Source: Wenzhouxiangella sp.
Lineage (GTDB): Bacteria > Pseudomonadota > Gammaproteobacteria > Xanthomonadales > Wenzhouxiangellaceae
Assembly (NCBI GenBank): GCA_007135935.1
Contig: SLIA01000310.1
Coordinates: 1 to 37,234, forward strand
Length of the DNA stretch: 37,234 bases
Direction of reading: 5' to 3'
Shown: piece after piece, positions 12,690 to 35,697 of the stretch
Numbering within the stretch: the first letter of the stretch is position 1
Layout of the letters: every line of letters starts with the position of its first letter
The notes under the pieces: generated by a model
What the model was told of the DNA's origin: nothing
The model's database searches: none
What the model saw: only the letters and a program-made list of their open reading frames with translations
Translations under genes and position numbers: made by a program

Positions 12690-12721
12690 TGGTCAATGGT
12701 AGCGCAAGCTTGTCGGTGAGG

Positions 12722-12827
12722 GACCAGGGACCAGGGACCAGGTTGGACTGCCACCGACCACTGACTTCCGACCTTCCCCATTCACCCATTCACCCATTCA
12801 CCCGTCGACTCGTCGACCCGTTCCTCC
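12722..12827. repeat. Short-unit tandem array: GACCAGG x3 (7 bp), then ATTCACCC x3 followed by degenerate 8-bp units
   Basis: GACCAGG at 12722, 12729, 12736; ATTCACCC at 12780, 12788, 12796, then GTCGACTC, GTCGACCC, GTTCCTCC in the same 8-bp phase to 12827. Confidence 0.85.
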
Positions 12828-12931
12828 GGAACCCGCCTTTCACGCTACAATGGCAGGCTGTCCTTGCAGCACCTTTTCGCTGTCCCCATTTACAACAATC
12901 AGCTAGCGAATAACCAACGAACGGACTCCGT

Positions 12932-15658
12932 ATGCTCAAAGCCCTGATCACCAAGGTCGTCGGCAGCCGCAACGAACGGCTGGTCAAGCGCCTGCAAAAG
13001 GATGTCGAGGCGATCAATGCCCTCGAACCCGAATTCCAGAATCTCTCCGATGACGAGCTGCGCGCCAAGACCGAAGAGTTTCGCAAGCGCCACGCCGACG
13101 GCACCAGCCTCGACGAGTTGCTGCCGGAGGCCTTTGCGGCGACGCGCGAAGCCTCCGTTCGTACCATGGGAATGCGCCATTTCGACGTTCAGCTTATCGG
13201 CGGCATGGTGCTGCATCAGGGCAAGATCGCCGAGATGAAGACCGGCGAGGGCAAGACGCTGGTCGCCACGCTGGCCGTCTACCTCAACGCCATTGCCGAC
13301 AAGGGCGTGCATGTGGTCACGGTCAACGACTATCTCGCCCGCCGTGACGCCGAATGGATGAAGCCCATCTACGACGCCCTGGGCCTGACCGTCGGTGTTT
13401 CCGTGCCGGGCATGACGCCCGACGCCAAGCGCGAGGCGTATGCCGCCGATGTGACCTACGGCACCAACAACGAATTCGGATTCGACTACCTGCGCGACAA
13501 CATGGCGTTTTCGCTCGAGCAGCGCGTGCAGCGCGGGCGCGCGTTCGCGATTGTCGACGAGGTCGACTCGATTCTCATCGACGAGGCGCGCACACCGCTG
13601 ATCATCTCCGGTCCGACCGACGAGGGCCCGGACATCTATCTGAAGATGAATCGCATTGTTCCCGCGCTCGAGCCTCAGGAGGAGGAAGAGGGTCCTGGCG
13701 ATTTCACCATCGACGAGAAGACCAAGCAGGTCTACCTGACCGAGGAAGGGATGGCCAAGACCGAGCGTCTGCTGGCACAGGCCGGACTGCTCGAGGCCGA
13801 CGACAGCCTCTACAATGCCAACAACCTGGGCCTGATGCACACCCTCAATGCCTCGCTGCGCGCGCATCACCTGTTTGCCAGGGACGTCGATTACATCGTG
13901 CGTGACGGCGAGGTGGTCATCGTCGACGAGTTCACCGGCCGTACCCTGCCGGGCCGGCGCTGGTCGGAAGGGCTGCACCAGGCCGTTGAGGCCAAGGAAG
14001 GGGTGCCGATTCAGCGCGAGAACCAGACCCTGGCCTCGATCACCTTCCAGAACTACTTCCGGCTCTACGAGAAGTTGTCCGGGATGACCGGTACGGCCGA
14101 TACCGAGGCCTACGAGTTCCAGAGCATTTACGGTCTGGAGGTGGTCGTGATTCCGACCCACCGGCCGATGGTGCGTGAGGATCATCCCGACCTGGTGTTT
14201 TTGACCAAGCAGCAGAAGTTCGATGCCATCGTGGCCGATATCAAGGAGCGGGTGGCCAACGGCCAGCCCGTGCTGGTCGGGACCACCTCGATCGAGAATT
14301 CCGAGCTGATTTCGAAGGAACTGAAGAAATCCGATATTCCTCACGAGGTGCTCAACGCCAAGCAGCACGAGCGCGAGGCGCACATCATCGAGCAGGCCGG
14401 CCGCCCGGGCTCGGTCACCATCGCCACCAACATGGCCGGCCGCGGTACCGATATCGTGCTCGGCGGCAATCTCGACGCCGAACTGGCCGAGCTCGGCGAG
14501 AACGCATCGGAGGAGGATCGTCGCAAGGTCAAGGAAGCGTGGCAGAAGCGCCACGACGCGGTCATCGAAGCCGGTGGACTGCATATCATCGGCACCGAAC
14601 GCCACGAGTCGCGCCGCATCGACAACCAGTTGCGCGGCCGTGCCGGCCGTCAGGGCGATCCCGGCTCCAGCCGGTTCTACCTGTCGCTCGAAGACAATCT
14701 CATGCGCATTTTCGCCTCCGAGCGCATGGGCAACATGATGGCCAAGCTGGGCATGAAGGATGGCGAGGCCATCGAACATCCCTGGGTGACGCGGGCGATC
14801 GAGAACGCCCAGCGCAAGGTCGAGGCTCACAACTTCGATCTGAGAAAACACCTGCTGGACTTCGACGACGTCGCCAACGACCAGCGGCGGGTGATCTATA
14901 CCCAGCGCAACGAATTGATGGAGGCCGACGACATCAAGGACACCATCGATTCGGTGCGAGAAGAGGTGTTCGACGACCTCATCAGCCAGTTTGTGCCGCC
15001 CGAGTCGATCGACGAGATGTGGGATCCGGAAGGCCTGGAGCGGGCGCTCGGTGGCGATTTCGGCATCGAGGTGCCGGTGCGCCAGTGGCTGGACGAAGAT
15101 GCCGATCTTGACGAGTCCGGTCTGCGCGAAAAGATCATGGAAAAGGTCAATGCCCACTTCGAAGCCAAGGAGGAGATGACCGGTTCGGAGGTCATGCGCC
15201 AGTTCGAGAAGGCATTGATGCTCAGCATCCTCGACCAGCAGTGGAAGGAGCACCTGGCGAGCATGGACTACCTGCGGCGCGGCATCAACCTGCGTGCGTT
15301 TGCCCAGAAGAAGCCACAGCAGGAGTTCAAGCGCGAAGGCTTCGAGATGTTCACCGCCATGCTCGATACCATGAAGCACGAGGTGATGAAGGGGCTGGCC
15401 AGGGTGCGCATCCGCAGCGAGGACGATGTCGAGGCGGTCGACCAGCAGCGCCGGCGCGAGGCGCCGATGCAGTTCCAGCACGCCGAGGCCCAGTCGGCCA
15501 CCGCCGGCGGTCCGGGTAGCGCCGACGATCAGCGCGGGCGCGGCGAGGATCTCAAGCCGGACACCTTCGTGCGCGAGGGGCGCAAGGTCGGCCGCAACGA
15601 GCCGTGCCCCTGTGGGTCGGGCAAGAAATACAAGCAATGTCACGGCAAGCTGGGATGA
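12932..15658 (+). CDS. secA: Preprotein translocase ATPase SecA
   Basis: [77 protein letters not shown]-terminal zinc motif [20 protein letters not shown]. Confidence 0.98.
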
Positions 15659-15668
15659 ATCGGCGGGT

Positions 15669-15689
15669 CGTGAGCCGTGAGCCGTGAGA
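15669..15689. repeat. Short 7-bp tandem repeat CGTGAGC x3 (last unit CGTGAGA)
   Basis: CGTGAGC CGTGAGC CGTGAGA directly after the secA stop and overlapping the only in-frame upstream GTG of the next gene. Confidence 0.7.
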
Positions 15690-16669
15690 CCCTGACCGGA
15701 TCGCCCGCGACCATTGAGCATCCGGCCCGAATCCGGGTCGCGGCCGGGGTGATTCGGGACCGCTCCGGCAATATTCTGCTAAGCCAGCGCCCCGCGGGCA
15801 AACACCTGGCCGGCACCTGGGAGTTCCCCGGTGGCAAATGCGATGCCGATGAAAGTGCCGCCCAGGCGCTGATCCGGGAGCTCGACGAGGAGCTCGGGAT
15901 CCAGGTCGAATCGGCCGCTCCTCTGCTGGCCTTGACCCATGCCTACCCCGAACGCACGGTCCAGTTGATCCTGATGGAAGTGGCTGCCTACCGCGGGCAT
16001 GCGCATGGGCGCGAGGGGCAGGCCCTGCGCTGGGTGGCTGCGCATGAACTCGATGCGCTGGAGATGCCGGCTGCCGACCGCCCCATCGTCAAGGCCCTTT
16101 CGATCGATCCGCGCTACGCCATTACGCCGGATCCGGCCGACCTGGGTGGGCCAAGCGGTCTGCTGGAGTGGGCCGATACGGCTTTCGCCGCCGGCCATCG
16201 GCTGATGCAGTTGCGAGCCCACAGCCTGGGCTCGGCGGCCTTGACCGACCTGGCCGGTCGCTTCGGCGCGCTGGCCCGCCGTCACGGCGCGCAATGGCTG
16301 CTCAATGGGCCGCCGGAACTGGCACTGGAGCTCGGGGCAGACGGCGTTCACCTGACCGGCAGGGCGCTTGCCGAGACCGGCACACGGCCACTGCCCGAGG
16401 ATCGATTGGTCATGGCTTCTTGTCACGACCGCCACGATCTGGCCCAGGCCGGTCGCATCGGGGCTGACCTGGTCTGTCTGTCGCCGGTCGGGAATACCGG
16501 CTCGCACCCCGACGCCGCCCCGATGGGTTGGGCCGGACTGCAGGCGCTGATTCGCCATGCCCCGTTGCCCGTGTTTGCGCTTGGCGGCATGGCGCCGGAC
16601 GATCTCGATCAGGCCCGTCGCCACGGTGCCTTCGGGGTAGCCGGCATTTCCGCCTTTGCCGGAACCTGA
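15677..16669 (+). CDS. Nudix (MutT-like) hydrolase fused to a thiamine-phosphate-synthase-like C-terminal domain
   Basis: Nudix box region WEFPGGKCDADESAAQALIRELDEELGI; C-terminal TIM-barrel-like ThiE similarity (HRLMQLRAHSLG..., GADGVHLTG, DLVCLSPVGNTGSHPDAAPMGW, VFALGGMAPDDL). Start codon uncertain (GTG 15677). Confidence 0.88.
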   Translation: MSRETLTGSPATIEHPARIRVAAGVIRDRSGNILLSQRPAGKHLAGTWEFPGGKCDADESAAQALIRELDEELGIQVESAAPLLALTHAYPERTVQLILMEVAAYRGHAHGREGQALRWVAAHELDALEMPAADRPIVKALSIDPRYAITPDPADLGGPSGLLEWADTAFAAGHRLMQLRAHSLGSAALTDLAGRFGALARRHGAQWLLNGPPELALELGADGVHLTGRALAETGTRPLPEDRLVMASCHDRHDLAQAGRIGADLVCLSPVGNTGSHPDAAPMGWAGLQALIRHAPLPVFALGGMAPDDLDQARRHGAFGVAGISAFAGT

Positions 16670-16670
16670 C

Positions 16671-17384
16671 ATGAATACCCTGTCACGAACCCGTCTGCCG
16701 CTGAAGACACGCCAGCTGCCGCCGCCCGGGATGGTGGATCTGTGGCTGATTGCATTACAGCAATTGCCGCTGGATTCCGTGCCTGCCGGTCACGATCGTC
16801 CTGCCTGGCTGCGCGGTCAGCGCATTCGGCAACGGTTCATGCTGCGTTTGCTGCTGGGTAGTTACCTGGGGTGCCCGGGGCGTGACCTTGAGCTGGTGCG
16901 CGGCGAGCGCGGCAAGCCGATGCTCGGCCAGCGTCATGCCGAAACAGCCTTGACATTCAATGTCTCGCACAGCGGCGATTGGCTGGCCGTGGTCGTCGGG
17001 CATGACTGCCCGGTGGGCGTGGATATCGAGCTTGAACGCAGCATGCCGCGTGCCGTGGCGCTGGCCAGGCGTTATTTCCCCGCAGTCGAGGCCGACGCGC
17101 TCTCCGGCCTGGATGAACCCTTTCGCTCAAGGACCTTCCTGCAGCACTGGACGGCGCGCGAAGCCCTGGTCAAGGCACGAGGCTGTGGCCTGGCCGGCAC
17201 CATGGATTGCATCGCACTCGGGGGCAGTCCGCCGGCGATCGCGGGATTGCCGTCGAGCTGGCCCGCGGACGATCAGTGGTCGTTGGTGATGCCGCCCCTG
17301 CCCGAGGGGCTGGTCGGGCATGTCGCGGTCGCGCGTTCCGGCGTCGGCGTCGACACCCGCGTGCTTGAAACACCCGGAGCGTAG
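16671..17384 (+). CDS. Sfp-type 4'-phosphopantetheinyl transferase superfamily protein
   Basis: LTFNVSHSGDWLAVVV, CPVGVDIELERS, FLQHWTAREALVKARGCGL (Sfp-like motifs); ATG at 16671. Confidence 0.85.
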   Translation: MNTLSRTRLPLKTRQLPPPGMVDLWLIALQQLPLDSVPAGHDRPAWLRGQRIRQRFMLRLLLGSYLGCPGRDLELVRGERGKPMLGQRHAETALTFNVSHSGDWLAVVVGHDCPVGVDIELERSMPRAVALARRYFPAVEADALSGLDEPFRSRTFLQHWTAREALVKARGCGLAGTMDCIALGGSPPAIAGLPSSWPADDQWSLVMPPLPEGLVGHVAVARSGVGVDTRVLETPGA

Positions 17385-17391
17385 CAGGGCG

Positions 17392-19152
17392 ATGAGACGG
17401 CTGTCGCTTGCGTTGCTGGTGCTTGTGCTGGGTGCGTGCAGTCTCTCGCCCGAGCGGCGGGCGGAGATCGACGCGCTTGTCGAACGTGAGCGCGGCAGTG
17501 TGGCGCTCATTCCCGACCCGGCCCCGCAGGTGCTGAATTCGCGGCTGGACGCGCTGGTTCCGGATGACGGCGGCCATCATCTGCTGCTGATCGAGCAGGG
17601 CAGCGATGCCCTGGCCATGCGTATCCACCTGATTCGCTCGGCGCGTGAAAGCATCGAGCTGATGAATTACATCTTCCATGACGACGAGTCCGGTCAGCTG
17701 CTGTTGGCCGAACTGATCGATGCCGCCCGTCGTGGCGTGTCGGTCCGGGTGCTGGTCGACAGCCTGTTCTCGCTCGACGACGTCGAACTGCTAGCCGGCC
17801 TGGAACTGCTCGATGCCGGAATCGAGATCAGCTTCTACAATCCGTTGTTCGATCGCGCCTCGCTGGGAGACCTGGCTTTTGCCAGTGCCGTGATCTGCTG
17901 CTTTCGGCAGATCAACAACCGACTGCATCACAAGCTTCTGGCCGTCGATGGCCGCCATGGCATGGTCGGTGGGCGCAACAGCGCCGACCGCTATTTCGAC
18001 CTCGACACACGCATGAATTTTCTCGATATGGAGGTGGTCGTGTCCGGGGACGTGGTCGCGGAAATGAGTGCGGATTTCGACGACTTCTGGCAGCACACCG
18101 CCAGTCTTCCGACGCGATACACCCGGGATGTGGCAGCGGTGCTCGAGAAACGTCGGCCCGAGGCCATGGTGCTTAAGCGCGACAACCGCGCTGCCTATGC
18201 GCTCGATCTGGTCGACAGCCCGGAATGGTTCGACAAGCTGGTCGGCGAGGCCGGCTTTGCGGTCGGCGCAGTGCGCTATTTTTCCGACCCGCCGGACAAG
18301 ACATGGCACCGGGAAAGCGAGGTCTCCACCCGCGTGCTGCATGAGCTGATCGCCAACGCCACCGAAAGCGTGCTCATCCAGACGCCTTATTTCGTGCTCT
18401 CACGTGACTTCGAGCGCTTGCTGGCCGGCCTCGACGACTCGGTGGAGGTGGTCGTCTCGAGCAATTCGCTGGCCTCCACCGACGCCTGGCCGGTCTATGC
18501 CATCTCGCGCCGACAGCGGTATCGCATGGTCAGCGGGCTTGGCGTGCGCCTGTACGAGGCCAAACCCTTCCCGGCCGATCTCGAACAATTCAATCGCCGT
18601 TACGAGCAGCTGGTTATCGATCGCGCGCTGGGCATTACCAGTCCGATGCGCATCGATCCGCCCAGTGCCACGGCCGAGCGTCCCGGGCCGCGCATCAGCG
18701 TCCACGCCAAGTTGCTTGTCATCGACGGGCGCATTGCCGTGGTGACGTCGCACAACTTCGACCCGCGCTCGGAGCTGTTCAATACCGAAAACGGCATCGT
18801 CGTCGAGGACGAGGTATTCGCCCGTGCCTTGAGCGATTACATCGAAACCATGATTGAACCGCGCAACAGCTGGCTGGTGGCTGCACGTCCGGAAGGCCCG
18901 CCCGTCATCGGGTCGATCAACCGCGGCATGGCGCGGGTATCGAGGCGCCTGCCGACCCTGGACCTGTGGCCGTGGTACCTGACCGAGAACTACCGTGTCG
19001 ACGAAGAGGCAACGGCGATCGGTCCGGATCATCCCGACTTTCACGATCACCACGAAGCGGTGGGCCTGATGCCCGATGTGGTGCTGCTGCGCCGTATTTT
19101 TTCCACCGGCCTGGTGAGCCGCATGTTCGGGTTCCTGCGCCCGATCATGTGA
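17392..19152 (+). CDS. Phospholipase D / cardiolipin synthase-like lipoprotein (two HKD motifs)
   Basis: ATG at 17392, lipobox LGACS; HHKLLAVDGRHGMVGGRNSADRYF and HAKLLVIDGRIAVVTSHNFDPRS. Confidence 0.88.
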   Translation: MRRLSLALLVLVLGACSLSPERRAEIDALVERERGSVALIPDPAPQVLNSRLDALVPDDGGHHLLLIEQGSDALAMRIHLIRSARESIELMNYIFHDDESGQLLLAELIDAARRGVSVRVLVDSLFSLDDVELLAGLELLDAGIEISFYNPLFDRASLGDLAFASAVICCFRQINNRLHHKLLAVDGRHGMVGGRNSADRYFDLDTRMNFLDMEVVVSGDVVAEMSADFDDFWQHTASLPTRYTRDVAAVLEKRRPEAMVLKRDNRAAYALDLVDSPEWFDKLVGEAGFAVGAVRYFSDPPDKTWHRESEVSTRVLHELIANATESVLIQTPYFVLSRDFERLLAGLDDSVEVVVSSNSLASTDAWPVYAISRRQRYRMVSGLGVRLYEAKPFPADLEQFNRRYEQLVIDRALGITSPMRIDPPSATAERPGPRISVHAKLLVIDGRIAVVTSHNFDPRSELFNTENGIVVEDEVFARALSDYIETMIEPRNSWLVAARPEGPPVIGSINRGMARVSRRLPTLDLWPWYLTENYRVDEEATAIGPDHPDFHDHHEAVGLMPDVVLLRRIFSTGLVSRMFGFLRPIM

Positions 19153-19220
19153 AGCGTCTGCAGAGTGTTCAGGTCGTGGCGAGGCGGCACAATCCGGCGC
19201 CGGCCTTGAGCGCTATCGGG

Positions 19221-20846
19221 TTATCGGGCTGTGGTGACCAGTCCCATCAGCAGGCCAATGACCAGACCCGCGCCGCCAAGCCAGTCGTGGCCCGAGGCGA
19301 ACAGCACACTGCCGGCAATGATCAGGGAGCCGGCCAGCAGCCCGGCCGCAACGCGCACCTGTGAACCGGTCGATTTCCCGTGCAGCCGTTCGAGGTCGGC
19401 GGGGTCGATACGCGTGTGCAGCTTGCCGCTGGCGGCCTTCTTGAGGTAGTCGTGGACCAGCACCGGCAACTCCGGTGAGCGCGCCAGCCAGCCCGGCAGT
19501 TCGCGTCCGATGCGGCGGGCGGTGCGCGGCAGGCCGTAGCGCTCGGCGAAAATGCCTTCCAGTTCCGGTTTGGCCACTTCCCAGATGTTGAGTTGCGGGT
19601 AGAGCTCGCGGGCCATGCCCTCGATGTTGAGCAGGGTCTTCTGCAGCATGATCAGCTGTGGCTGCAGGGTCAGCTTGAAGCGCCGGGCCACCGCGAACAG
19701 GGCCAGCACCATCTCGGCAAAGGAGACTTCTTCCAGTGGCCGGGTAAAGTTGGGTTCGCACACCGTGCGGGCCGCCGCTTCCAGTTCCTCGATGCGGGTG
19801 TCGGCCGGTACCCAGCCGGCCTCGACGTGCAGCTCGGCCACGCGCCGATAGTCGCGGTTGAAGATGGCCAGGAAATTCTCGCCAATGTAGTGCAGGTCTT
19901 CCGGCGCCATGGTCTCGACGATGCCGAAGTCCAGCGCGATGATGGTCGGATCGGCCGGGTCGGAGGTGTCGATGAGGATGTTGCCGGGGTGCAGGTCGGC
20001 ATGGAACAGATTGTCGCGAAAGACCTGGGTGTAGAAGATGCGGATGCCGCGTCGGGCCAGCTTTTCCAGGTCGACCTCGCGTCGCCTGAGCTCGGCAAGG
20101 TCCTTGACCGGCACGCCGGAGACGCGCTCCATGGTCAGTACCCGTTTCGCCGTGTGGCTCCAGTGAATGGCGGGGATGTAGAGTTCGTGCGAGTCCTCGA
20201 AATTGCGTCTGAGCAGCGAGGCATTGGCACCCTCGGACTGCATGTCGAGCTCGCGGGAAATGACGCGCTGGAACTCGGCGACGATGTCATCCGGGCGAAT
20301 GCGGTCGCCTTCGGGGTGATGGCGACGGACCAGCCGCGCCATGGCCTTGAGCAGTTCCAGGTCGCGCTCGATCTGGCGCTCGATACCTGGGCGGACCACC
20401 TTGACCACCACCGACTCGCCCGATTCGAGCCGGGCGGCGTGCACCTGGGCGATGGAGGCCGAGGCCAGGGCGCTGTGCTCGAATTCGGTGAACAGCTCGT
20501 CTGTGGACGCGCCGAGCTCTTCTTCGATGATGCGGCGCGCCTCCGCGCCGGGGAAGGGCGGCACCGCGTCCTGCAACAGTGCCAGCTCATCGGCGATGTC
20601 GGGCGGCAGCAGGTCGCGGCGCGTCGACAGGATCTGGCCGAACTTGACGTAGATCGGCCCCAGTTCCTGCAGGGCCAGGCGCAGGCGCTCGCCATGCGGC
20701 AAGTCGCGCACACCTCGACGGCCCCAGGGCAGAAGGCGGACCAGCCGGGCAAGCTTCAACGGCGGCATGCCGACGAACATTTCGTCGAGCCGGTAGCGGG
20801 CCAGGGTCAGCGCGATGCTGGCGAGTCGGAAGCTGCGCCCGATCAT
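19221..20846 (-). CDS. ubiB: UbiB-family kinase-like protein for ubiquinone biosynthesis
   Basis: GPIYVKFGQILSTRRDLLP (KxGQ motif), VVVKVVRPGIERQIERDLELL, DLHPGNILID, ALDFGIVETM; downstream of ubiJ and ubiE. Confidence 0.95.
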   Translation of the reverse strand: MIGRSFRLASIALTLARYRLDEMFVGMPPLKLARLVRLLPWGRRGVRDLPHGERLRLALQELGPIYVKFGQILSTRRDLLPPDIADELALLQDAVPPFPGAEARRIIEEELGASTDELFTEFEHSALASASIAQVHAARLESGESVVVKVVRPGIERQIERDLELLKAMARLVRRHHPEGDRIRPDDIVAEFQRVISRELDMQSEGANASLLRRNFEDSHELYIPAIHWSHTAKRVLTMERVSGVPVKDLAELRRREVDLEKLARRGIRIFYTQVFRDNLFHADLHPGNILIDTSDPADPTIIALDFGIVETMAPEDLHYIGENFLAIFNRDYRRVAELHVEAGWVPADTRIEELEAAARTVCEPNFTRPLEEVSFAEMVLALFAVARRFKLTLQPQLIMLQKTLLNIEGMARELYPQLNIWEVAKPELEGIFAERYGLPRTARRIGRELPGWLARSPELPVLVHDYLKKAASGKLHTRIDPADLERLHGKSTGSQVRVAAGLLAGSLIIAGSVLFASGHDWLGGAGLVIGLLMGLVTTAR

Positions 20847-21478: not shown

Positions 21479-21497
21479 GGTCTATTCCCACTCGTGG

Positions 21498-22223: not shown

Positions 22224-22261
22224 CTGAGATGCCTGTGCAAGTAGGTTGGCCTGGAAAACTG

Positions 22262-22365
22262 CACCACAGAGGCACAGAGTACACAGAGAAATTCCTCAAG
22301 AAATATTATGAAAATGTTTCCTCTGTGACCTCTGTGACCTCTGTGACCTCTGTGTCTCTGTGGTG
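22262..22365. repeat. Inverted-arm short-unit array, 9-bp period (CTCTGTGAC type)
   Basis: CACAGAG at 22265, 22273, 22282; CTCTGTG at 22321, 22330, 22339, 22348, 22356. Outer 18 bp CACCACAGAGGCACAGAG (22262-22279) matches the reverse complement of 22348-22365 at 17/18. Confidence 0.9.
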
Positions 22366-22371
22366 AGCATT

Positions 22372-24317: not shown

Positions 24318-24447
24318 TCTTCTAACCCCGGGTTGTTATTGGTTCAGGCCGGCCAGTTGGCGGCAGAGCCGGCATGATAGCGCATGGGGGCGGAAGGTGC
24401 AGCGGGTGCGGGTTCCGAATCCAGGTGAAGAACGATCTACGGCGATT

Positions 24448-24561
24448 GTCGTTTGGTCGTTTTGTCTCTTTGTCTTTTCGTCAAAGAAGCGATGCCGTCC
24501 GGTATCGGTGTAAGTAGTGGATAGTTTTCGAAACGACAAAGCGACAAAGCGACTAAACGAC
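24448..24561. repeat. Inverted-arm short-unit array, strict 8-bp period (GTCGTTTN type)
   Basis: Left arm GTCGTTTG GTCGTTTT GTCTCTTT GTCTTTTC (24448-24479); right arm GAAACGAC AAAGCGAC AAAGCGAC TAAACGAC (24530-24561). Arms are reverse complements at 28/32 positions; core 24480-24529. Confidence 0.92.
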
Positions 24562-24613
24562 AGGTCCCGGAACCCCGGGAACCGCTCTTACCAGAACCCT
24601 GAAAGCTTCCCTA

Positions 24614-25927
24614 TCAGAACCCAATCGCAAACAACCCCAGACACAGAATCAACCCCGCCAGCGGCACGACGACGGTCAGTGCGCCCATGGCCGGGTAGGC
24701 GCCGGCGTGGGTTTCGTTGCAGATGGCGCGGATGGTGGTGACCACGTAGCCGTTGTGGGGCAGGGAGTCGAGGGCGCCGGAAGAGATGGCGACGACGCGG
24801 TGGAGTTGGTCGGGGTCGACGCCCTGGTCCATGTAATGAGGTCCCAGAATGGGCAGGGCGATGGCCTGGCCGCCGGAGGCCGAGCCGGTCATGGCGGCGA
24901 TGGCCGATACGGCAATGGCGGCACTGACCAGGCCATTGCCGGGCATGCCGGTAACCCAGGTCACGGCCGCGTCGAAGGCCGGTGAGACCTGGGCGACGGT
25001 ACCGAAGCCGACCACCGCGGCGGTATTGCCGATGGCGATCAGCGCGCCCACGCCGCCCTCGGTCATGGCATCGCCGGGCTTGTGCAGGTGGCGCACGTTG
25101 ATCAGGGCCGCGCCGATGGTGCCGGCCAGCAGGGCCAGAATCAGTGCTGAAGTGCCGAGCTGGTCATGAGTGGTGAACGAGATGCCCAGCACCAGCAGCA
25201 AGGGCACGGCCGATAGCGCGGGGTGGGGCAGGTTCTCGCGACCACTTTTTGGATCGCCTTCGCGCTCCTCGAAGTGTTCGCCGCGCTCGACCGCGCGCTT
25301 GAGCATCCATCGCAGCCACATGTAGCCGGTCACGGCCATGAACAGAGCGACGATGGCGCTGGCCTCCCAGGCCGCCAGCGGGCTGGAGCCGAGGTGCTCG
25401 ACCGGGATCCAGTTCTGGATTTCCGGCGAGCCGGCCGAGGTCATGGTGAAGGTGACCGAGCCGAAAGCCAGGGTGGCCGGGATGAAGCGGCGCGGCAGGT
25501 CGGCGTCGCGAAACAGCGCCAGGGCCATCGGGTAGACCGAGAAGGCAACCACGAACAGGCTCACCCCGCCGTAGGTCAGCACCGCGCAGGCCAGTACCAC
25601 GGCCAGGGCGGCCTGTTTGGTGCCCAGCCGGGTGATGATCCACTGGGCCACGGCGTCGGCGCCGCCGGAGGATTCCATGAACTTCCCGAACAGCGAGCCG
25701 AGCAGGAAGATGAAGAACCACGAGGCGATAAAGCCGGTGAAGCCGTTCATGTACTGGGTGATCAGGTCGGCCTGTCCCTCGGCGGCCAGCGGGGGCAACA
25801 GGGCGATCCCGCTGGTCAGGGCCACGATCAGGGCACACAGCGGCGTGGCCACGAACAGGCTCATGCCGCGCATGACAAGAACGATAAGCAGCGCAAGGCC
25901 GCCGAGCAGGCCGATCAGGCTGAGCAT
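24614..25927 (-). CDS. GntP-like / H+ symporter family permease
   Basis: MLSLIGLLGGLALLIVLVMRGMSLFVATPLCALIVAL..., FTGFIASWFFIFLLGSLFGKFMESSGGADAVAQWI, TYGGVSLFVVAFSVYPMALALF; start chosen at 25927, upstream ATGs possible. Confidence 0.78.
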   Translation of the reverse strand: MLSLIGLLGGLALLIVLVMRGMSLFVATPLCALIVALTSGIALLPPLAAEGQADLITQYMNGFTGFIASWFFIFLLGSLFGKFMESSGGADAVAQWIITRLGTKQAALAVVLACAVLTYGGVSLFVVAFSVYPMALALFRDADLPRRFIPATLAFGSVTFTMTSAGSPEIQNWIPVEHLGSSPLAAWEASAIVALFMAVTGYMWLRWMLKRAVERGEHFEEREGDPKSGRENLPHPALSAVPLLLVLGISFTTHDQLGTSALILALLAGTIGAALINVRHLHKPGDAMTEGGVGALIAIGNTAAVVGFGTVAQVSPAFDAAVTWVTGMPGNGLVSAAIAVSAIAAMTGSASGGQAIALPILGPHYMDQGVDPDQLHRVVAISSGALDSLPHNGYVVTTIRAICNETHAGAYPAMGALTVVVPLAGLILCLGLFAIGF

Positions 25928-26119
25928 GGTTGGACATTCCGGCTTGGAGTCGGATGTCATGTTGGCAAGCCGGGGCGATGGCGGGAACTGTACCAAGGTA
26001 CAAGTTACAGCTCGACGGTCGGCAACGTAGGCTTCAGGCTGTCAATCGACCCGGTGTCGGCTCGGCTCCGGGGTCACCAGTCAACAAATTCAAAAGAAAG
26101 CGGGATACAGGGAACTGCC

Positions 26120-28495: not shown

Positions 28496-28530
28496 TATGC
28501 CGGAAGGAGGGATTCATCCGGCTCTCCCGG

Positions 28531-28562
28531 CCCGGGGTCGCGCAAGCGGCCCCGGGTTTTTT
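28531..28562 (+). terminator. Rho-independent terminator after the TonB-dependent receptor
   Basis: CCCGGGGTCGC-GCAA-GCGGCCCCGGG (11-bp stem, one mismatch/wobble) followed by TTTTTT. Confidence 0.92.
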
Positions 28563-28566
28563 CGTC

Positions 28567-28681
28567 GGTGAAAGAAAAAAGGTGAAAGGTAAAAGGCGAA
28601 AAGACCAAACGACCAAACGACAAAACGACGAACGACCCAACGACCCAACGAACCAACGAACCAACGAACCAACGAACCAAC
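28567..28681. repeat. Compound short-unit tandem array: 7-bp units, then about ten 7/8-bp units drifting in sequence
   Basis: GGTGAAA GAAAAAA GGTGAAA GGTAAAA GGCGAAA (7-bp phase, 28567-28601), then GACCAAAC x2, GACAAAAC, GACGAAC, GACCCAAC x2, GAACCAAC x4 (28603-28681). Confidence 0.92.
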
Positions 28682-28696
28682 CAATAGGCGCTACCA

Positions 28697-31600
28697 TTGC
28701 CTGATGCACTCGCCCACGGTTCCGGAAGCTTGCTGAGTCTGTCGACGCTGACACTGATCATCGCCGGCGTCGTCTGGCTGGGGCTGCTGTTTGCCGTGGC
28801 CCTGGTCGGGGAGCGTTCGCCGGAGCGCTGGCGCCGGATCTGGCCGGTGGTCTACTCGCTGTCGTTGGCGGTCTACTGCACGGCCTGGACCTTTTACGGC
28901 ACCACTACCCAGGCGGTGGTACACGGCTGGCCGATTCCGCCGACTTTCGTCGGCACCATCATCCTGTTCGTTTTCTGCTTTCCGTTTCTCAGGCGCCTGG
29001 TTCGCCTGAGCAAGTCGGCCAATGCCACCAGCATCGCCGACTTCATCGCCAGCCGCTTCGGCAAGTCCTCGGCGCTGGCCGCGGTGGTCACCGGCGTGGC
29101 CCTGCTCGGCCTGGTGCCCTACATTTCCCTGCAGCTCAAGGCGGTGGCGATGAGCTTCGGCGCGCTGACCCTGGGGCGCGCCGAGGTGGCCGAGCCGGCC
29201 GCCTGGCAGGATCTGGCGTTCTATGTGGCCCTGTTCATGGCCCTCTTTGCCGTGCTCTTCGGCACCCGTCGCGCATCGGCTACCGAGCACAACCGCGGGT
29301 TGGTGTTGGCGATGGGGTTCGAGTCGCTGCTCAAGCTATCGGCCATGCTCGCCCTGGGTGTATTCGTGCTGTTCCGGCTCTACCCGGGCCCCGGCGACAT
29401 GTTGGAGCAGACCGTCACGCCGGCCTTTTCGGGCACCGACAGCTTTCTGACCCTGATGCTGCTCGGCGCCCTGGCCATGTTCACCTTGCCGCACCAGTTC
29501 CATATCGGCGTGGTCGAGTGCCGTTCGGAGTCGCATCTGAAGGTCGCGCGCTGGCTGTTTCCGCTGTTCCTGGTGTTGATCGCGTTGCCCATCGTGCCAC
29601 TGGCCCGTGCCGGCATGGCCCATTTCGGCGAAGCCGGTATCGCACCGGATCTGTACGTGCTGATGCTGCCGCTCACCGGCCAGGCCGACGGGCTTGCGCT
29701 GTTCGCGTTCCTTGGCGGCTTGAGCGCGGCCACCGGCATGGTCATTCTGGCCAGTCTCACGCTGTCGATCATGATCGGCAATCACTGGCTGACCCCGGCC
29801 TTGCTCAATCGGCGCTGGGGCGCGGTCGGCGATCTGCGCATTCCGGTTCGTCTGCAGCGGCGGGTCGGTATTGCCGCGGTATTGCTGATGGCCTATGCCT
29901 ACAGCCGTGCCGTGGGTATGGCCGAGGCGCTGGCCGATATCGGTGCGCTGTCGTTCTCCGGGTTGGCCCAGCTCGGCCCGGCCGTCGTGCTGGCCGTCTA
30001 TCGGCCCGGTCTGCCCGCACGCGCCATCATGGCCGGCATTGCCAGTGGCGTGGTGGTGTGGGCCTACGTACTGTTCCTGCCGCTCGGGCTGGCCGCGCTC
30101 GGCCTGCGCCCCGACTGGATGGGTGCCGGACCGCTCGGGCTGGCCTGGCTGGCACCGGAGAACCTGTTCGGTCTGACCGCGGTCGAGCCGCTGGCCCGGG
30201 CCGTGGTAGCCAGTCTGCTGGTCAATTGCCTGGTCATCGTGCTGGTCACCCGTTTCAGTCCGTCAGGCGATGATGAAGGGGTGGCCGCTGAACCGCTGGA
30301 TCCGAAAGTACTCTGGACGCTGGCCGACCGGTTCCTGCCGCCACAGCGCGTGCAGATGCTCTCGGGCGGGCAGAGCGATGCGCGCAGTCTGGCGCGTCGG
30401 CTGGAGCACGAGTTGACTGCCGTGGTGGGCTCGGCCTCCGCCCGGCTGCTGATGGATGCCGCCCGCCGGCGCACGCCGGCGCCACTGGACACCGTGGCCG
30501 ACCTGGTCGGTCAGGCCGCAGAGCAGGCGCGCTTCAGCCAGGAGGTGCTCTCGGGTGCGCTGGAGAACATGAGCCAGGGCGTGTGCGTGGTCGACCGCGA
30601 CATGCGCCTGGTGGCGTGGAACAGCAGCTACCTGGCCCTGTTTGACTACCCGGACGAACTGATTCGCGTCGGCCGGCCGGTGGCCGACCTGCTCAGGCAC
30701 AATGCCCGTCAGGGGTTGATGGAAGGCGGCGATGTCGATGCCATGATCGAGCGCCGGCTGACTCACAAGCGCGCCGGGACCCGGCATCGCGTTGAACGCC
30801 CCTGGCCGGATGGTCGCATCATCGAGATTCGTGGCAACCCCATGCCCGGTGGCGGTTTCGTCGCCACCTTCACCGACGTGACCGCGTTCCGGCATGCCGA
30901 GCAGGAACTCAAGCGCATCAACGAGACGCTGGAGCAGCGGGTGGCCGAACGCACGGGCGAGCTGGAGCAGGCCAAGCTCACCGCCGAACGGGCCAATGCG
31001 GCCAAGTCCCGCTTTCTCGCAGCGGTCAGCCACGACCTGGTGCAACCGGTCAACGCCGCGCAGTTGCTGACTCACTCGCTGGGCACCCAGATCGAAAGTC
31101 CACGGGCGAAGCAGTCACTGTCGCAGATCTCCGGTGCGCTGGGGGCGACCGAGGATTTGCTCGAGGGCCTGCTCGACATCTCGCGACTCGATGCCGGCGG
31201 GCTGGAACCGCGCATCAGCCGTTTCCCCCTGTCGGAAATGTTCGATCAGCTCCACGGCGAGTTTTCGGTGCTGGCGAAAGAGGCCGGTCTGCGTCTGGAC
31301 TGCATGCCGACCCGGGCCTGGGTCGAGACCGATTCGCAATTGCTGCGCCGCATCCTGCAGAACTTTCTGTCCAATGCCGTGCGCTACACCGAAAGCGGGC
31401 GTGTGCTGATCGGCTGTCGCCGCCGCGGCAGCGGGATCATGATCGGCGTGTGGGATACCGGCCCGGGGATTCCCGGGGAGTTTCGTCCCGTCATCTTCGA
31501 GGAATTCCGTCGCCTGGACGACGACCAGCATGCACCGGGCCTGGGCCTGGGCCTGGCCATTGCCGAGCGCATGACGCGCCTGCTGGGTCACGAGCTGGTG

Positions 31601-32089
31601 CTCGACAGCCGGCCCGGACGCGGCACGCTGTTCGGCCTGGTCGTGCCGCGCGTGGCGCCGGAGCGGCCGGCCGCGGTCGGTCCCGAGCTTGCCGGTGAGC
31701 CGGACTCGGCGCGGGTGCTGGTTGTCGATAACGACCCGGACATGCTGGGTTCGCTGGACACCTTGCTTGGCGACTGGGGTTTCGAGGTCGCGACCGCCGC
31801 CAGGCTGGAACAGGCCCGCGAGCTGGCGCAATCGCATCTGCCGTCACTGTTGCTGCTCGACTACCACCTCGATGGTGGCCAGACCGGTCTTGAAGTGCTT
31901 GAAGCGTTAAGGGCGGACGGTTGCACCGCACCCGCCATCCTGATCAGCGCCGATCACGGCGCCGACCTGAAACAGGCCGCCCGCCAGAGTGGTTGCGAAC
32001 TCCTGCACAAGCCGATCCGCCCCCTGGCGCTGAGGTCGCTGATGTCGCGCCTGCTGCGACCCTTGCGGGCCTCGGGCACAAATGGCTGA
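28697..32089 (+). CDS. Hybrid sensor histidine kinase with N-terminal sodium:solute-symporter-like domain, PAS, HisKA, HATPase and C-terminal receiver
   Basis: About 12-TM SLC5-like N-terminus (LSKSANATSIADFIASRFGKSSALAAVVTGVALLGLVPYISLQLKAV), PAS (LSGALENMSQGVCVVDRDMRLVAWNSSY), H-box FLAAVSHDLVQPVNAAQLL, HATPase GVWDTGPGIP / GLGLGLAIAERM, receiver VVDNDPDML...LLLLDYHLDGG...HKP. Start uncertain (TTG 28697 or a later TTG). Confidence 0.9.
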   Translation: MPDALAHGSGSLLSLSTLTLIIAGVVWLGLLFAVALVGERSPERWRRIWPVVYSLSLAVYCTAWTFYGTTTQAVVHGWPIPPTFVGTIILFVFCFPFLRRLVRLSKSANATSIADFIASRFGKSSALAAVVTGVALLGLVPYISLQLKAVAMSFGALTLGRAEVAEPAAWQDLAFYVALFMALFAVLFGTRRASATEHNRGLVLAMGFESLLKLSAMLALGVFVLFRLYPGPGDMLEQTVTPAFSGTDSFLTLMLLGALAMFTLPHQFHIGVVECRSESHLKVARWLFPLFLVLIALPIVPLARAGMAHFGEAGIAPDLYVLMLPLTGQADGLALFAFLGGLSAATGMVILASLTLSIMIGNHWLTPALLNRRWGAVGDLRIPVRLQRRVGIAAVLLMAYAYSRAVGMAEALADIGALSFSGLAQLGPAVVLAVYRPGLPARAIMAGIASGVVVWAYVLFLPLGLAALGLRPDWMGAGPLGLAWLAPENLFGLTAVEPLARAVVASLLVNCLVIVLVTRFSPSGDDEGVAAEPLDPKVLWTLADRFLPPQRVQMLSGGQSDARSLARRLEHELTAVVGSASARLLMDAARRRTPAPLDTVADLVGQAAEQARFSQEVLSGALENMSQGVCVVDRDMRLVAWNSSYLALFDYPDELIRVGRPVADLLRHNARQGLMEGGDVDAMIERRLTHKRAGTRHRVERPWPDGRIIEIRGNPMPGGGFVATFTDVTAFRHAEQELKRINETLEQRVAERTGELEQAKLTAERANAAKSRFLAAVSHDLVQPVNAAQLLTHSLGTQIESPRAKQSLSQISGALGATEDLLEGLLDISRLDAGGLEPRISRFPLSEMFDQLHGEFSVLAKEAGLRLDCMPTRAWVETDSQLLRRILQNFLSNAVRYTESGRVLIGCRRRGSGIMIGVWDTGPGIPGEFRPVIFEEFRRLDDDQHAPGLGLGLAIAERMTRLLGHELVLDSRPGRGTLFGLVVPRVAPERPAAVGPELAGEPDSARVLVVDNDPDMLGSLDTLLGDWGFEVATAARLEQARELAQSHLPSLLLLDYHLDGGQTGLEVLEALRADGCTAPAILISADHGADLKQAARQSGCELLHKPIRPLALRSLMSRLLRPLRASGTNG

Positions 32090-32139
32090 GGATTCCGGGT
32101 AACCCGGATGCAGCCTGGTTCCGGGTGGGAGATGCCCGG

Positions 32140-33453
32140 TCAGGAGAACTGAACGACCGGCGAGGTTTCAAGAATCTTGGCGTATCGCTCGTGCACCTTG
32201 CCCATGCGCACCCGGCCGAGAAAGCCCGAGTAGGCCAGGTAGCTGACCAGGAAACGCCGATCGGATGCCCAGGGAGGCAGGAACTTCGGCGCCTTGAGCA
32301 GCCCCATCTCGGCCAGTTCGCACAACACCGGCACATCGGCCAGTGCCAGCTTGCCGCAGAACAGTAGTTGCAACACGTCGGCGCGGCCGGCGGCGATCAG
32401 CGAGCGCAGGAAATCGTGCACGCGCAGCAAGCCGTCGAGATAGACCACGTCCTTGGTAAACGGTGCCCCACCGGTGAGCACGCCGCCGCGATAGACGCGT
32501 CGGGTCTGCTCGAAAGCCGCCTTCTCCGTGGCTCCCTTGTCGAGAAAATGCCGGTAGACCTCGATGAAGTCGGCCCCGTCGATCGCCATCTGTATGGCCA
32601 GCACCCGGTCGGCCAGGCGACTTAATCGATCCACATCCATGCAGCCGGTGATGAACTCGGAAAACACCGCCAGGCCTTCCTGGGTGCGGGTGGTGCCGGG
32701 ATGACTGGAGGCGAGAATGGGCAGTTCGGTCTGGGCGCGCCCGTTGAGAGCCGTGGTGACGTGGATGCCCGCTTCGTGGTGTACGAGCTGGTCGACGTCG
32801 CGGTCGGTGAAATGAGCGCCAGCGCGAATGCGGATGCGCTCGGCACCGGCGGTGGCATTGGCCGTCAGGCTGTCGACGATCTCCACTGCCGGCGCGTCAT
32901 CGCCGAAGAATTTCACCACGGCGGCACGCATGCGTCGGGCGACGAGATCGGCCGTCGCGGTCGCGCCAGGTGGTGCGCCCAGGTCGATGTGGGCGAGGTG
33001 GTCGATGATGCGGCGCAACCGTCGTGCCAGTTGCAGGGGGCTGGCGGTTGAATCGGGCAGCGCCTCGGAAGGTGCGCCGTAGAGTTGGTGCGAACACTCG
33101 AAAAAACCGGGGTTGTCGAGTTGATTGAGCATGCGGCTGGCCATGTCGAGCCGATCGGCGATGCGCGCCAGCCAATCGCGGGCCGGTCCGCTCCGTTCAA
33201 TCAGGGGGCGGGCCGTGGCCAGCGCCTGGTCGACGGGGGCGGTGTCGACCTCGGGGTAGGTGACCCGCGGCAGCTCCCGGCCGCCGGAGGCGAGAAATCG
33301 GTCGCGCACCTCGACAGGCCAGGCCAGCAGGCCGAGAATGCGCAACGGCTGCTCCGCCTGGCGCAAGGCCGTGGCGGCCTCGGTAATGCGGCGGGCCTGT
33401 TGGCGGTGGGCGCTGGTCGGCACGCTCGGACTCCATGCGATAATGGGCGGCAA
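32140..33453 (-). CDS. DUF1704 / QEGLA-motif putative zinc metallopeptidase
   Basis: HHEAGIHVTTALNG (HExxxH) and TRTQEGLAVFSEFITG (QEGLA motif); start uncertain (TTG 33453, possibly GTG about 33424). Confidence 0.85.
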   Translation of the reverse strand: MPPIIAWSPSVPTSAHRQQARRITEAATALRQAEQPLRILGLLAWPVEVRDRFLASGGRELPRVTYPEVDTAPVDQALATARPLIERSGPARDWLARIADRLDMASRMLNQLDNPGFFECSHQLYGAPSEALPDSTASPLQLARRLRRIIDHLAHIDLGAPPGATATADLVARRMRAAVVKFFGDDAPAVEIVDSLTANATAGAERIRIRAGAHFTDRDVDQLVHHEAGIHVTTALNGRAQTELPILASSHPGTTRTQEGLAVFSEFITGCMDVDRLSRLADRVLAIQMAIDGADFIEVYRHFLDKGATEKAAFEQTRRVYRGGVLTGGAPFTKDVVYLDGLLRVHDFLRSLIAAGRADVLQLLFCGKLALADVPVLCELAEMGLLKAPKFLPPWASDRRFLVSYLAYSGFLGRVRMGKVHERYAKILETSPVVQFS

Positions 33454-33459
33454 TCGCGG

Positions 33460-33465
33460 TATAAT
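33460..33465 (+). promoter_or_regulatory. Possible -10 element (TATAAT) upstream of oleA
   Basis: GCGGTATAATAACC about 48 bp upstream of the oleA ATG; no convincing -35 at 17 bp spacing. Confidence 0.3.
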
Positions 33466-33512
33466 AACCTGTTAACGTGCTCAATCGCCCGTCGGGCGGT
33501 CAGGAAGAAATC

Positions 33513-34529
33513 ATGCTGTTTGACAACGTCGTCATCAAATCCGTCGCCTGCGTCGATGCCCCCTACGCGGTCACCAGTGAGGAAGTCCGGGAACGGCTTG
33601 CCCCGACCTTCAAGAAACTCAAGGTGCGCGGCAATCCACTGATTGATCTGGCCGGCATCGAGGAGCGACGCTTCTGGGACGATGGCGTGCTGCCCTCCGA
33701 TGCGGCCACCATGGCCGCGCGTGAAGCGCTGGCACGCGCTGACGTCGATCCGGACCGGATCGGCATCCTGATCAACACCTCGGTTTCGCGCGACTTTCTC
33801 GAGCCGTCGACCGCCTGCATGGTGCACGGTAACCTCAAGCTGCCCAATACCTGCGAGAGCTTCGATGTCGGCAACGCCTGCCTGGCCTTCATCAACGGCA
33901 TGAACATCGCCGGACGCATGCTCGATCGCGGCGAGATCGATTACGCGCTGATCGTCAACGGCGAGAACAGCAAGGAGATCAATGAGATCACCATCAAGCG
34001 CCTGCTCGATCCCAAGGTGACGCGCAAGCAGTTCAAGAGCGAGTTCGCCAGCCTGACGCTGGGCTCCGGCGCGGCTGCCATGGTCATGTCGAGAGGTGAA
34101 ATCGAGCCCGACGGTCACCGCTACCGCGGCGGCGTGTCGCGAGCGGCTACCGAGTTCAACCAGCTCTGCCGTGGCTGGAACCACCAGATGTGGACCGACA
34201 CCCGCGGCCTGATGCGCGAAGGCATCAAGCTGGCCACCTCCACCTACGCCACGGCTCGCCAGTTGCTGGGCTGGGTCGCCAGCGAATTCGATCACGTCGT
34301 CGTCCACCAGGTCTCCAAGGCCCACACCGACGCCTTCATCATGGCGTTCGGTCTGGACCCCGAGCGCGTCTACCGCATCTTCCCGACACTCGGCAACGTT
34401 GGCCCGGCCTCCATCCCCACGGTGCTGGCCCGGCTGGTCGACGAAAATCGCGTCAAGCGCGGCGATCGCATCACCCTGGTCGGCGTCGGCTCCGGATTGA
34501 ATGCGGCGATGACGGAAGTGGTTTGGTAA
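33513..34529 (+). CDS. oleA: OleA, thiolase-superfamily acyl-CoA condensing enzyme (olefin / beta-lactone pathway)
   Basis: ATG at 33513 with AGGAAG upstream; MLFDNVVIKSVACVDAPYAVTSEEVRERL, LINTSVSRDFLEPSTACMVHGNL, DVGNACLAFINGMNIAGRMLDRGEIDYALIV (active-site Cys), GSGLNAAMTEVVW C-terminus as in known OleA. Confidence 0.93.
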   Translation: MLFDNVVIKSVACVDAPYAVTSEEVRERLAPTFKKLKVRGNPLIDLAGIEERRFWDDGVLPSDAATMAAREALARADVDPDRIGILINTSVSRDFLEPSTACMVHGNLKLPNTCESFDVGNACLAFINGMNIAGRMLDRGEIDYALIVNGENSKEINEITIKRLLDPKVTRKQFKSEFASLTLGSGAAAMVMSRGEIEPDGHRYRGGVSRAATEFNQLCRGWNHQMWTDTRGLMREGIKLATSTYATARQLLGWVASEFDHVVVHQVSKAHTDAFIMAFGLDPERVYRIFPTLGNVGPASIPTVLARLVDENRVKRGDRITLVGVGSGLNAAMTEVVW

Positions 34530-34530
34530 G

Positions 34531-34632
34531 TTTCGTTCGTTCGTTTTTTCGTTTGTTGGTTTTTTCGTTGGAGTAGCAGCCCGCTCCCTTGACAACGAAT
34601 CAACGAACAAACGAATCAACGAACAAACGAGA
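34531..34632. repeat. Inverted-arm short-unit array, strict 8-bp period, filling the oleA-oleB junction
   Basis: Left arm TTTCGTTC GTTCGTTT TTTCGTTT GTTGGTTT TTTCGTTG (34531-34570); right arm CAACGAAT CAACGAAC AAACGAAT CAACGAAC AAACGAGA (34593-34632); reverse complements at 33/40; 22-nt core. Confidence 0.92.
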
Positions 34633-34636
34633 TCCC

Positions 34637-35524
34637 ATGATGGAAATCCCCCGAACGCTCTACCCGTTCGACAGCCACTGGCATGTCCAGTCGGGCGGTC
34701 ATCGCATGCACTACCTCGACGAGGGGCCGGTGGACGGTCAGCCCGTGGTCATGGTGCATGGCAACCCCACCTGGTCGTTCTATTACCGCGAGGTCGTCAA
34801 GGCGCTCAGTGACAGCCATCGCTGCCTGGTCCCCGATCATGTCGGCATGGGGTTGTCCGATCGTCCGTCAGACAACAACTACCACTATACCTACGCCAGC
34901 CGTATCGCCGACCTGGGCCACTGGCTCGACGAGGTCGAGCCCGAGCGCCCGGTCGACATCGTCGCCCACGACTGGGGCGGGGCGATCGCCATGGCCTGGG
35001 CGGTTCAGCACCCCGAGCGCGTGCGCCGCATCGTGCTGCTCAACACCTGGGCGTTCACCATTCCGCCGGAAGAAAGCTTGCCGTTCGGCCTGAAGTTCTG
35101 CCGGACCTCGATCGGTGCCTTCGCCATCAATCGCTTCAACCTGTTCGCCGGCCTGGCTGCGCGCGTGGCCACCAAAAACAAACTCGCCCCCGAAGTTGCC
35201 CGCGGCCTGGTCGCCCCCTATCGCGGCCGCCCCGAACAACGCCTGGCGACCCTGCGCTTCGTACAGGACATCCCCTTGAGCGAATCCGACCCCGCCTGGG
35301 CACCCCTGGCCGAAACCGAAAACGGCCTGCACAAACTCGTCGACAAGCCCATCCGCTTCATCTGGGGCCGCAAGGACTTCGTCTTCGATAACCGCGTCCT
35401 GAATAAGTGGCAGGAAATCTGGCCAGATGCCGACTACCAGATCCTCGAAAATGCCGCCCATTACGTCCTCGAAGACGCTCCCGAGCAGGTCACTGCTGGA
35501 ATTCGTGAACACCTTGAACGTTGA
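34637..35524 (+). CDS. oleB: OleB, alpha/beta-hydrolase (haloalkane dehalogenase-like) beta-lactone decarboxylase
   Basis: MMEIPRTLYPFDSHWHVQSGGHRMHYLDEGP, VMVHGNPTWSFYYREVV, VDIVAHDWGGAIAMAWA (Asp nucleophile), HYVLEDAPEQV; between oleA and oleC. Confidence 0.9.
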   Translation: MMEIPRTLYPFDSHWHVQSGGHRMHYLDEGPVDGQPVVMVHGNPTWSFYYREVVKALSDSHRCLVPDHVGMGLSDRPSDNNYHYTYASRIADLGHWLDEVEPERPVDIVAHDWGGAIAMAWAVQHPERVRRIVLLNTWAFTIPPEESLPFGLKFCRTSIGAFAINRFNLFAGLAARVATKNKLAPEVARGLVAPYRGRPEQRLATLRFVQDIPLSESDPAWAPLAETENGLHKLVDKPIRFIWGRKDFVFDNRVLNKWQEIWPDADYQILENAAHYVLEDAPEQVTAGIREHLER

Positions 35525-35528
35525 CCGT

Positions 35529-35697
35529 GTAACACGAAGAGCACGAAGGAGGCACGAAGCACACTTCATGAGTGACTGATGATCAAGTGCGCTTGTCAGA
35601 GCTTCCCCTGATGAGCTTGCCGGGGACTGGCCCAGCAAGTACTTTATCCCGATTCTCTTCGTGAGCTTCGTGCTCTTCTTCGTGTTCTTCGTGTTAC
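35529..35697. repeat. Inverted-arm short-unit array, about 9-bp period (CACGAAG/CTTCGTG type), in oleB-oleC junction
   Basis: CACGAAG at 35533, 35542, 35553; CTTCGTG at 35657, 35666, 35678, 35687. Outer 22 bp GTAACACGAAGAGCACGAAGGA (35529-35550) matches the reverse complement of 35676-35697 at 20/22. Confidence 0.9.

Follow-up and report, generated by a model that had tools for sequence, protein, structure and literature searches.

Two classes of intergenic palindromic arrays in Wenzhouxiangella: a candidate recognition-word array and a putative hairpin-forming satellite

Reports of heptamer arrays in bacteria go back years but assign them no function. A 37,234-nucleotide stretch of the Wenzhouxiangella sp. 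assembly GCA_007135935.1 (contig SLIA01000310.1, positions 1 to 37,234 of the forward strand; contig G000:C52 in our set, hereafter the window) raises the question of what such arrays are. An initial annotation of the window, made from the sequence alone, described gaps filled with phased arrays of 7-, 8-, or 9-bp units, often as two inverted arms around a nonrepetitive core, and considered them a candidate undescribed family. The host genome, G000, is a 3.2-Mb assembly of 325 contigs, 85% complete. All the listed gaps were found to hold arrays within a few bases of the annotated positions, with corrections to class, arm, and coordinate assignments.

Two classes of arrays in the intergenic gaps

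In an unbiased 362-kb sample of G000, we counted 56 arrays with periods of 6-11 bp, compared to none in five dinucleotide shuffles (array densities derive from a sample of 362-614 kb of this genome); the arrays are real, and chance is excluded. Most of them (45/56) are mainly intergenic, 20 with period 7, 23 with period 8, and 2 with period 9. Intergenic arrays with units of 5, 6, or more than 9 bp are nearly absent, the units being almost exclusively 7 or 8 bp. Among 26 neighboring array pairs no more than 200 bp apart, 14 were inverted-like and none direct-like, each type accounting for about 6% of random pairs. Enrichment over a shuffled background and arm pairing, two of the checks proposed with the initial annotation, were both borne out, and the common architecture with divergent words that it described holds genome-wide.

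The listed arrays are a mixture of two kinds. We denoted as class A the tandem 7/8-mers (12719-12821, 24448-24561, 28567-28684, and 34531-34632) and as class B the spaced 7-mer words (22262-22365 and 35529-35697). The latter two had been taken for 9-bp arrays; they consist of 7-mers spaced at steps of 8/9 and 9/11-12/9, respectively, and are not tandem 9-mers. Two arms are present in four of the six gaps, as described, whereas the gaps at 12719-12821 and 28567-28684 are one-armed or composite. The further claim that one strand of each arm is almost free of A is valid for octamers but fails for heptamers, the general rule being a fixed polarity of the word relative to the core.

The reading that we prefer, with roughly even confidence, is that two kinds of small palindromic noncoding elements share these gaps: class B, a word array with a putative reader, and class A, a satellite that forms hairpins.

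Conserved words and variable spacers in class B

Class B elements have a defined layout, with 3 + 3 words at steps of 8,8 or 8,9 for CACAGAG and 4 + 4 words at steps of 9,12,9 for CACGAAG; the spacers are variable. In 25 stretches from G000 and G009, steps of 9,12,9 were observed in 31 of 49 CACGAAG arms, the rest being close or shorter variants. Alignment of 33 such arms, which start with TAA, yielded 1.3-2.0 bits (mostly 2.0) at word positions and 0.2-0.8 bits in the two-base spacers. The CACAGAG arms, from 73 loci in many phyla, showed the same contrast, with about 2 bits in the words, about 0.5 in the spacers, and about 0 in the core; their steps are 8,8 (n = 79) or 8,9 (n = 36), the outer end reads TTAAC or TTCAC, and in 70 of 72 pairs the arm on the 5' side has the word in the CACAGAG orientation. 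T-rich stretches follow the ends of class B elements, a flank seen for this class only.

Between unlinked copies as between orthologs, words and steps are kept, whereas spacers and cores change. Class B elements also stay in place when two related species are compared. In four orthologous pairs from G000 and G009, 1 of 210 word sites differs compared to 26 of 267 nonword bases inside the element plus 8 gaps (P = 3e-6), with the reservation that the loci on both sides, those of G009 included, were chosen via word pairs (CACGAAG), so that word conservation is somewhat overstated, and that only four pairs were usable. Spacer agreement between the two arms of an element (3.3 of 9) is no higher than between unrelated arms (4.3 of 9), so neither arm pairing nor homogenization keeps the words; this comparison rules out arm homogenization as the cause of word conservation. 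Plain slippage is ruled out for class B as well because it would copy words and spacers together. The slippage-type expansion proposed in the initial annotation is inadequate more generally, given units of almost only 7/8 bp and fixed polarity in addition to the drifting spacers.

Judging from these sequence comparisons, class B most likely represents a spread array of recognition words with a putative reader. Each arm would present 3 or 4 copies of a 7-bp recognition word at fixed steps, the two arms being inverted around a core free to vary. Each copy would be kept because a putative sequence-specific factor, probably a protein acting on duplex DNA, reads the words, and copies would be dispersed by occasional mobilization or horizontal transfer. 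That the words may be read one by one is the simplest inference, and the 21-bp step between word pairs, corresponding to two helical turns, would fit duplex DNA as the substrate. The initial annotation argued for a generating process or mobile element class rather than one conserved binding site; for class B, this is contradicted by the per-copy conserved word in a fixed geometry, which resembles a recognition array.

The distribution of these elements was analyzed by scanning one genome per species with the pattern CACAGAG-N-CACAGAG-(20..50)-CTCTGTG-N-CTCTGTG. Paired CACAGAG elements were detected in at least 120 stretches and span at least nine phyla. The 80 matches listed come from Acidobacteriota, Myxococcota (two Sorangium genomes), Verrucomicrobiota, Planctomycetota, Gemmatimonadota, Spirochaetota, Bacteroidota, Calditrichota, Chlamydiota, and several classes of Proteobacteria. 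Many carriers are metagenome-assembled genomes, a few of which may be misbinned; named isolates among the listed matches include Sorangium, Spirosoma, Roseateles, and Rhodopila. Within the phylum of the window, 43 of 249 genomes contain CACAGAG pairs, with 494 matches compared to 26 for a reversed control (summed by hand). Viral contigs contributed 29 stretches with the element, and the CACGAAG geometry recurs in two genomes, G157 and G330, both outside the taxonomic class of the host. These scans verified the statement, in the initial annotation, that CACAGAG- and CACGAAG-type blocks occur in unrelated genomes.

With confidence somewhat short of even, we further suggest that CACAGAG and CACGAAG elements form an undescribed cross-phylum family of inverted 7-mer recognition arrays, with a fixed geometry of steps, that is read by a putative factor and spreads horizontally, the tandem 7/8-mers being either degenerate or parallel versions that point inward in the same way. 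Full-text searches with 15-17-nt strings and bare words found no description of class B, most subscription papers being outside their coverage. Once a spaced-word class is singled out, with word and geometry conserved per copy and shared by many phyla, what was a vague repeat phenomenon becomes testable.

One genome, G162, contains 193 CACAGAG pair matches, compared to at most 23 in others of its genus; about 28 copies have a common asymmetric core and about 200 bp of common context, and the core is flipped in 3 of 15 copies, which shows that a class B element can spread by copying. The copies in G000 have words in common, not cores. The suggestion of a small mobile class made in the initial annotation is supported for some copies, namely, the G162 burst and the lineage bursts of AGGTGAA described below. 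The elements resemble miniature inverted-repeat transposable elements (MITEs) in their small size, palindromic structure, and burst in G162. As to sharing of the whole element, the copies in G162 have arms and core in common and those in G000 do not. No transposase was seen in the host genome, and the ends of 11 inspected G162 copies showed no clear target duplication, no search for an autonomous partner having been made. In two Sorangium genomes (L158 and L228), the element occupies the same place, with the outer words kept and the core replaced.

Several individual loci stand apart. Further palindromes of spaced or 10-bp words (CGCCAAGG/CGCAAAGG, CGCAGATGAA, and CACAGATGAA), which are probably more members of class B, were observed at L103:4339-4496, L114:118-322, L125:9962-10117, and in the oleB-oleC gap of L101. 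In the left flank of L311 in G162, a palindrome of CACGAAT(GA) words adjoins a CACAGAG burst element. At L159 (~142-268), the palindrome around a CACAGAG element runs at least 26 bp into both flanks, nearly free of mismatches, which reflects a recent inverted duplication or else an artifact of assembly.

Polarity, word turnover, and nesting in class A

Class A is characterized by inverted arms, fixed polarity, lineage-specific word sets, and re-use of gaps; its words include AGGTGAA, AGGTTTC, GTCGTTTG, and GGTTCGTT, and its extrapolated total is about 400 arrays per genome. Read toward the core, the 5' arm is the G-richer strand in 19 of 21 pairs in G000, in 20 of 20 in relatives, and in 14 of 17 in other phyla, where the same design occurs with different heptamers. 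The word sets are lineage specific: AGGTGAA has 5 to 327 matches in each of 8 of the 41 relatives and none in the others, with 327 in G000 compared to 5 in G008, and samples of ten other genomes in the order contained almost no such arrays.

Across orthologous gaps, a palindrome is retained even though its word and core are exchanged, in some cases via nesting. Between oleA and oleB, the word is TTCGTT in G000 and G009, GTCGTTTC in G008, and GGTTGGCT in G003 and G010; the palindromes have self-inverted scores of 58-71, whereas scores between words are at or near noise. The G000 and G009 pairs in this gap are identical at 110 of 112 positions, compared to about 86% identity in the coding flanks, and no wider conserved tract is present; class A is thus more than fast-evolving junk (identity of SecA between these genomes is 94%). 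In the slot at 24390-24614, the octamer pair of G000 is flanked on either side by heptamer-like remnants, whereas the slot is occupied by heptamer pairs in G008, G009, and G022. Nesting of pairs was also found in G022 (the ubiE slot), L110, and L213. Five one-armed composites agree in their order and in a single junction, AAGGCGAAAAGACC or a variant close to it, suggestive of copying from locus to locus.

These features suggest that class A is a hairpin-forming satellite, similar in kind to that described in Xanthomonas. It would spread as arrays are copied from one locus to another and nest within old cores, which would also account for the word swaps, and slippage and template switching would keep the arms alike; plain slippage is a weak explanation for class A, given the near absence of 5-, 6-, and >9-bp units. 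In Xanthomonas and Nostoc, G-rich heptamer arrays of GGGAATC or GGGGA(C/T)T are intergenic and number hundreds per genome, with about 70-75 convergent inverted pairs per genome in Xanthomonas and turnover of length and sequence in the same gaps between related species (Rehm et al. 2015, PMC4692102). Class A, likewise with a tandem 7-bp unit, intergenic location, an extrapolated count in the hundreds, and convergent inverted pairs (14 inverted versus 0 direct; polarity 39/41), belongs with these arrays, and "undescribed" was too strong a term for it. The Xanthomonas/Nostoc word, GGGNATC, is capable of forming G-quadruplexes, unlike the main class A words AGGTGAA, AAACGACC, and AACCAACG, which lack G3 tracts; here, moreover, each genome has many words, octamers are the main class, and arrays nest and swap words at slots. 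New for class A are the octamers, the multiplicity of words, the conservation of slots despite swapped words, nesting, and the cross-phylum polarity. Inward polarity and word swaps at conserved slots constrain any model of the origin of intergenic repeats in bacteria. Class B, with its spaced words, does not fit the Xanthomonas/Nostoc type. The TAACTGA heptamer repeats of Beggiatoaceae, Cyanobacteria, and Bacteroidetes (MacGregor 2015, PMC4679880) resemble the present arrays in being intergenic and in a patchy spread suggestive of transfer but differ in having one word, in direct repeats close upstream of start codons, with a single indirect repeat reported.

Contigs frequently begin or stop within arrays (L006, L009, L022, L041, L053, L065, G008:C94, and G009:C167); the repeats thus break short-read assemblies and are undercounted in drafts. 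In the gap between the TonB receptor and histidine kinase genes of G008 (L097), an unrelated palindrome-bearing insert of about 200 bp lies within an old array, the outer remnants of which are common to G008 and G000.

Alternative explanations and individual elements of the window

Several points count against the two-class reading with a putative class B reader. No factor reading class B was identified, no systematic search having been made. Divergent gaps hold 12/90 and 9/43 of the elements (versus 56/260 and 62/219, respectively), only a mild depletion, and elements occur in co-directional and convergent gaps too, so no clear regulatory position emerges. A duplication process that rewrites words but not spacers would yield the same class B pattern, and the word conservation between G000 and G009 carries the selection bias given above. 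For class A, the oleA-oleB pair, 98% identical, is too conserved for a fast-slipping neutral array, and copying between loci is based on five loci with one shared junction.

It is possible, though clearly less probable than the reading we prefer, that all these elements are neutral or selfish, spreading in MITE- or REP-like (repetitive extragenic palindrome) bursts; template switching would keep the arms alike, slippage would alter the unit numbers, and the words would not be read. Template-switch homogenization and spacer inversion have been published (PMC8604942), and the patchy bursts in G162 and of AGGTGAA, the common context and flipped cores in G162, and the nesting in G022, L213, and L110 are all compatible with this explanation. 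It is at odds with class B, where words outlast the drift of the spacers, both in unlinked copies and in orthologs, and where many phyla share the same word and steps with unrelated cores. With respect to known selfish elements, REPs and bacterial interspersed mosaic elements (BIMEs) are dispersed intergenic palindromes as well, but the arms here are repeated 7-8-mers, and the REP-associated tyrosine transposase (RAYT) system was rejected for the host, with no match to PF01797 (Y1_Tnp) in the 85% complete G000. No Rfam match was detected in the window at the gathering threshold either.

Selection for RNA hairpins acting as terminators, processing, or stability elements, with the words incidental, appears unlikely. 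Three two-armed elements do fold strongly (z-scores of -6.6 to -9.4 compared to shuffles), palindromes survive between species at four of five gaps although sequence similarity there is down to noise, and T-rich stretches follow class B ends. However, the one-armed or composite arrays at 12719-12821 and 28567-28684 fold no better than shuffles (z = -0.4 and +1.8), and class B words show no compensatory variation and alternate with unpaired spacers. The G-rich 5' arm has the polarity opposite to that of usual intrinsic terminators. Intrinsic termination as a general role was rejected given the elements in divergent gaps.

In a telomerase-like mechanism, the 3' ends of a break would be extended by a reverse transcriptase using a short RNA template and then joined, with the synthesized strand of the two arms pointing inward. 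Such addition would explain why polarity is inward, why both arms carry equal words around a free core, and why units measure 7-9, but we regard it as highly improbable. The variable spacers of class B are incompatible with a single template, and PF00078 has no match in the array-bearing genomes G020 (99% complete), G023 (96%), and G003 (99%), which weakens a DRT10-like origin. DRT10 makes tandem-repeat DNA with 9-nt and other unit lengths (PMC12632851), similar to the arrays in the short repeated units; its products differ in being protein-primed cDNAs not described as chromosomal arrays, and PF00078 reverse transcriptases do not track the arrays. In the single-contig genome G019, nine reverse transcriptase matches, several near-identical, lie within 29 kb (G019:C1:3792391-3820990).

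In the first half of the window, the gene order is dcw-secA-mutT (names assigned from order and length), and in the second half, Pfam matches indicate ubiE, a GntP-type permease, a TonB receptor, a histidine kinase, and the ole cluster. The divergent gap upstream of secA holds, on the plus strand, a one-armed class A heptamer array of GACCAGG x3.4 (12719-12742, the annotated start of 12722 being better placed at 12719) and a class A octamer array of ATTCACCC grading into CGTCGACC-type units (12777-12821). In the comparison of orthologous gaps suggested in the initial annotation, the block ~12719-12830 proved absent from G022 and G019, with flanks kept. Downstream of secA, three units of CGTGAGC (15669-15688, plus strand), already recognized as a 3-unit 7-bp array, are matched by counterparts in G008 and G009 and, in decayed form, by a remnant in G022.

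The class B element at 22262-22365 (unstranded) has three inverted CACAGAG words in the 5' arm and five in the 3' arm around an AT-rich core (22289-22319), and CACAGAG elements occupy this slot in G019 and G022 too. The unstranded class A octamer pair GTCGTTTN/NAAACGAC (24448-24561) has a core of about 50 bp and is flanked by decayed heptamer-like stretches at ~24406-24430 and 24566-24606. At 28567-28684 (plus strand) lies a one-armed class A composite, (AGGTGAA)n-AAGGCGAAAAGACC-(AAACGACC)n-(AACGAACC)n, whose order and junction recur in L009, L022 (two loci), and L041. Two unstranded elements interrupt the ole cluster: the class A octamer pair TTCGTTNN/AACGAANN between oleA and oleB (34531-34632) and the class B element of inverted CACGAAG words between oleB and oleC (35529-35697), with steps of 9,11 in the 5' arm and 9,12,9 in the 3' arm. 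Adjoining the ole genes, a minus-strand gene (32140-33453) encodes a protein with a match to PF08014, the microtubule-associated tyrosine carboxypeptidase family.

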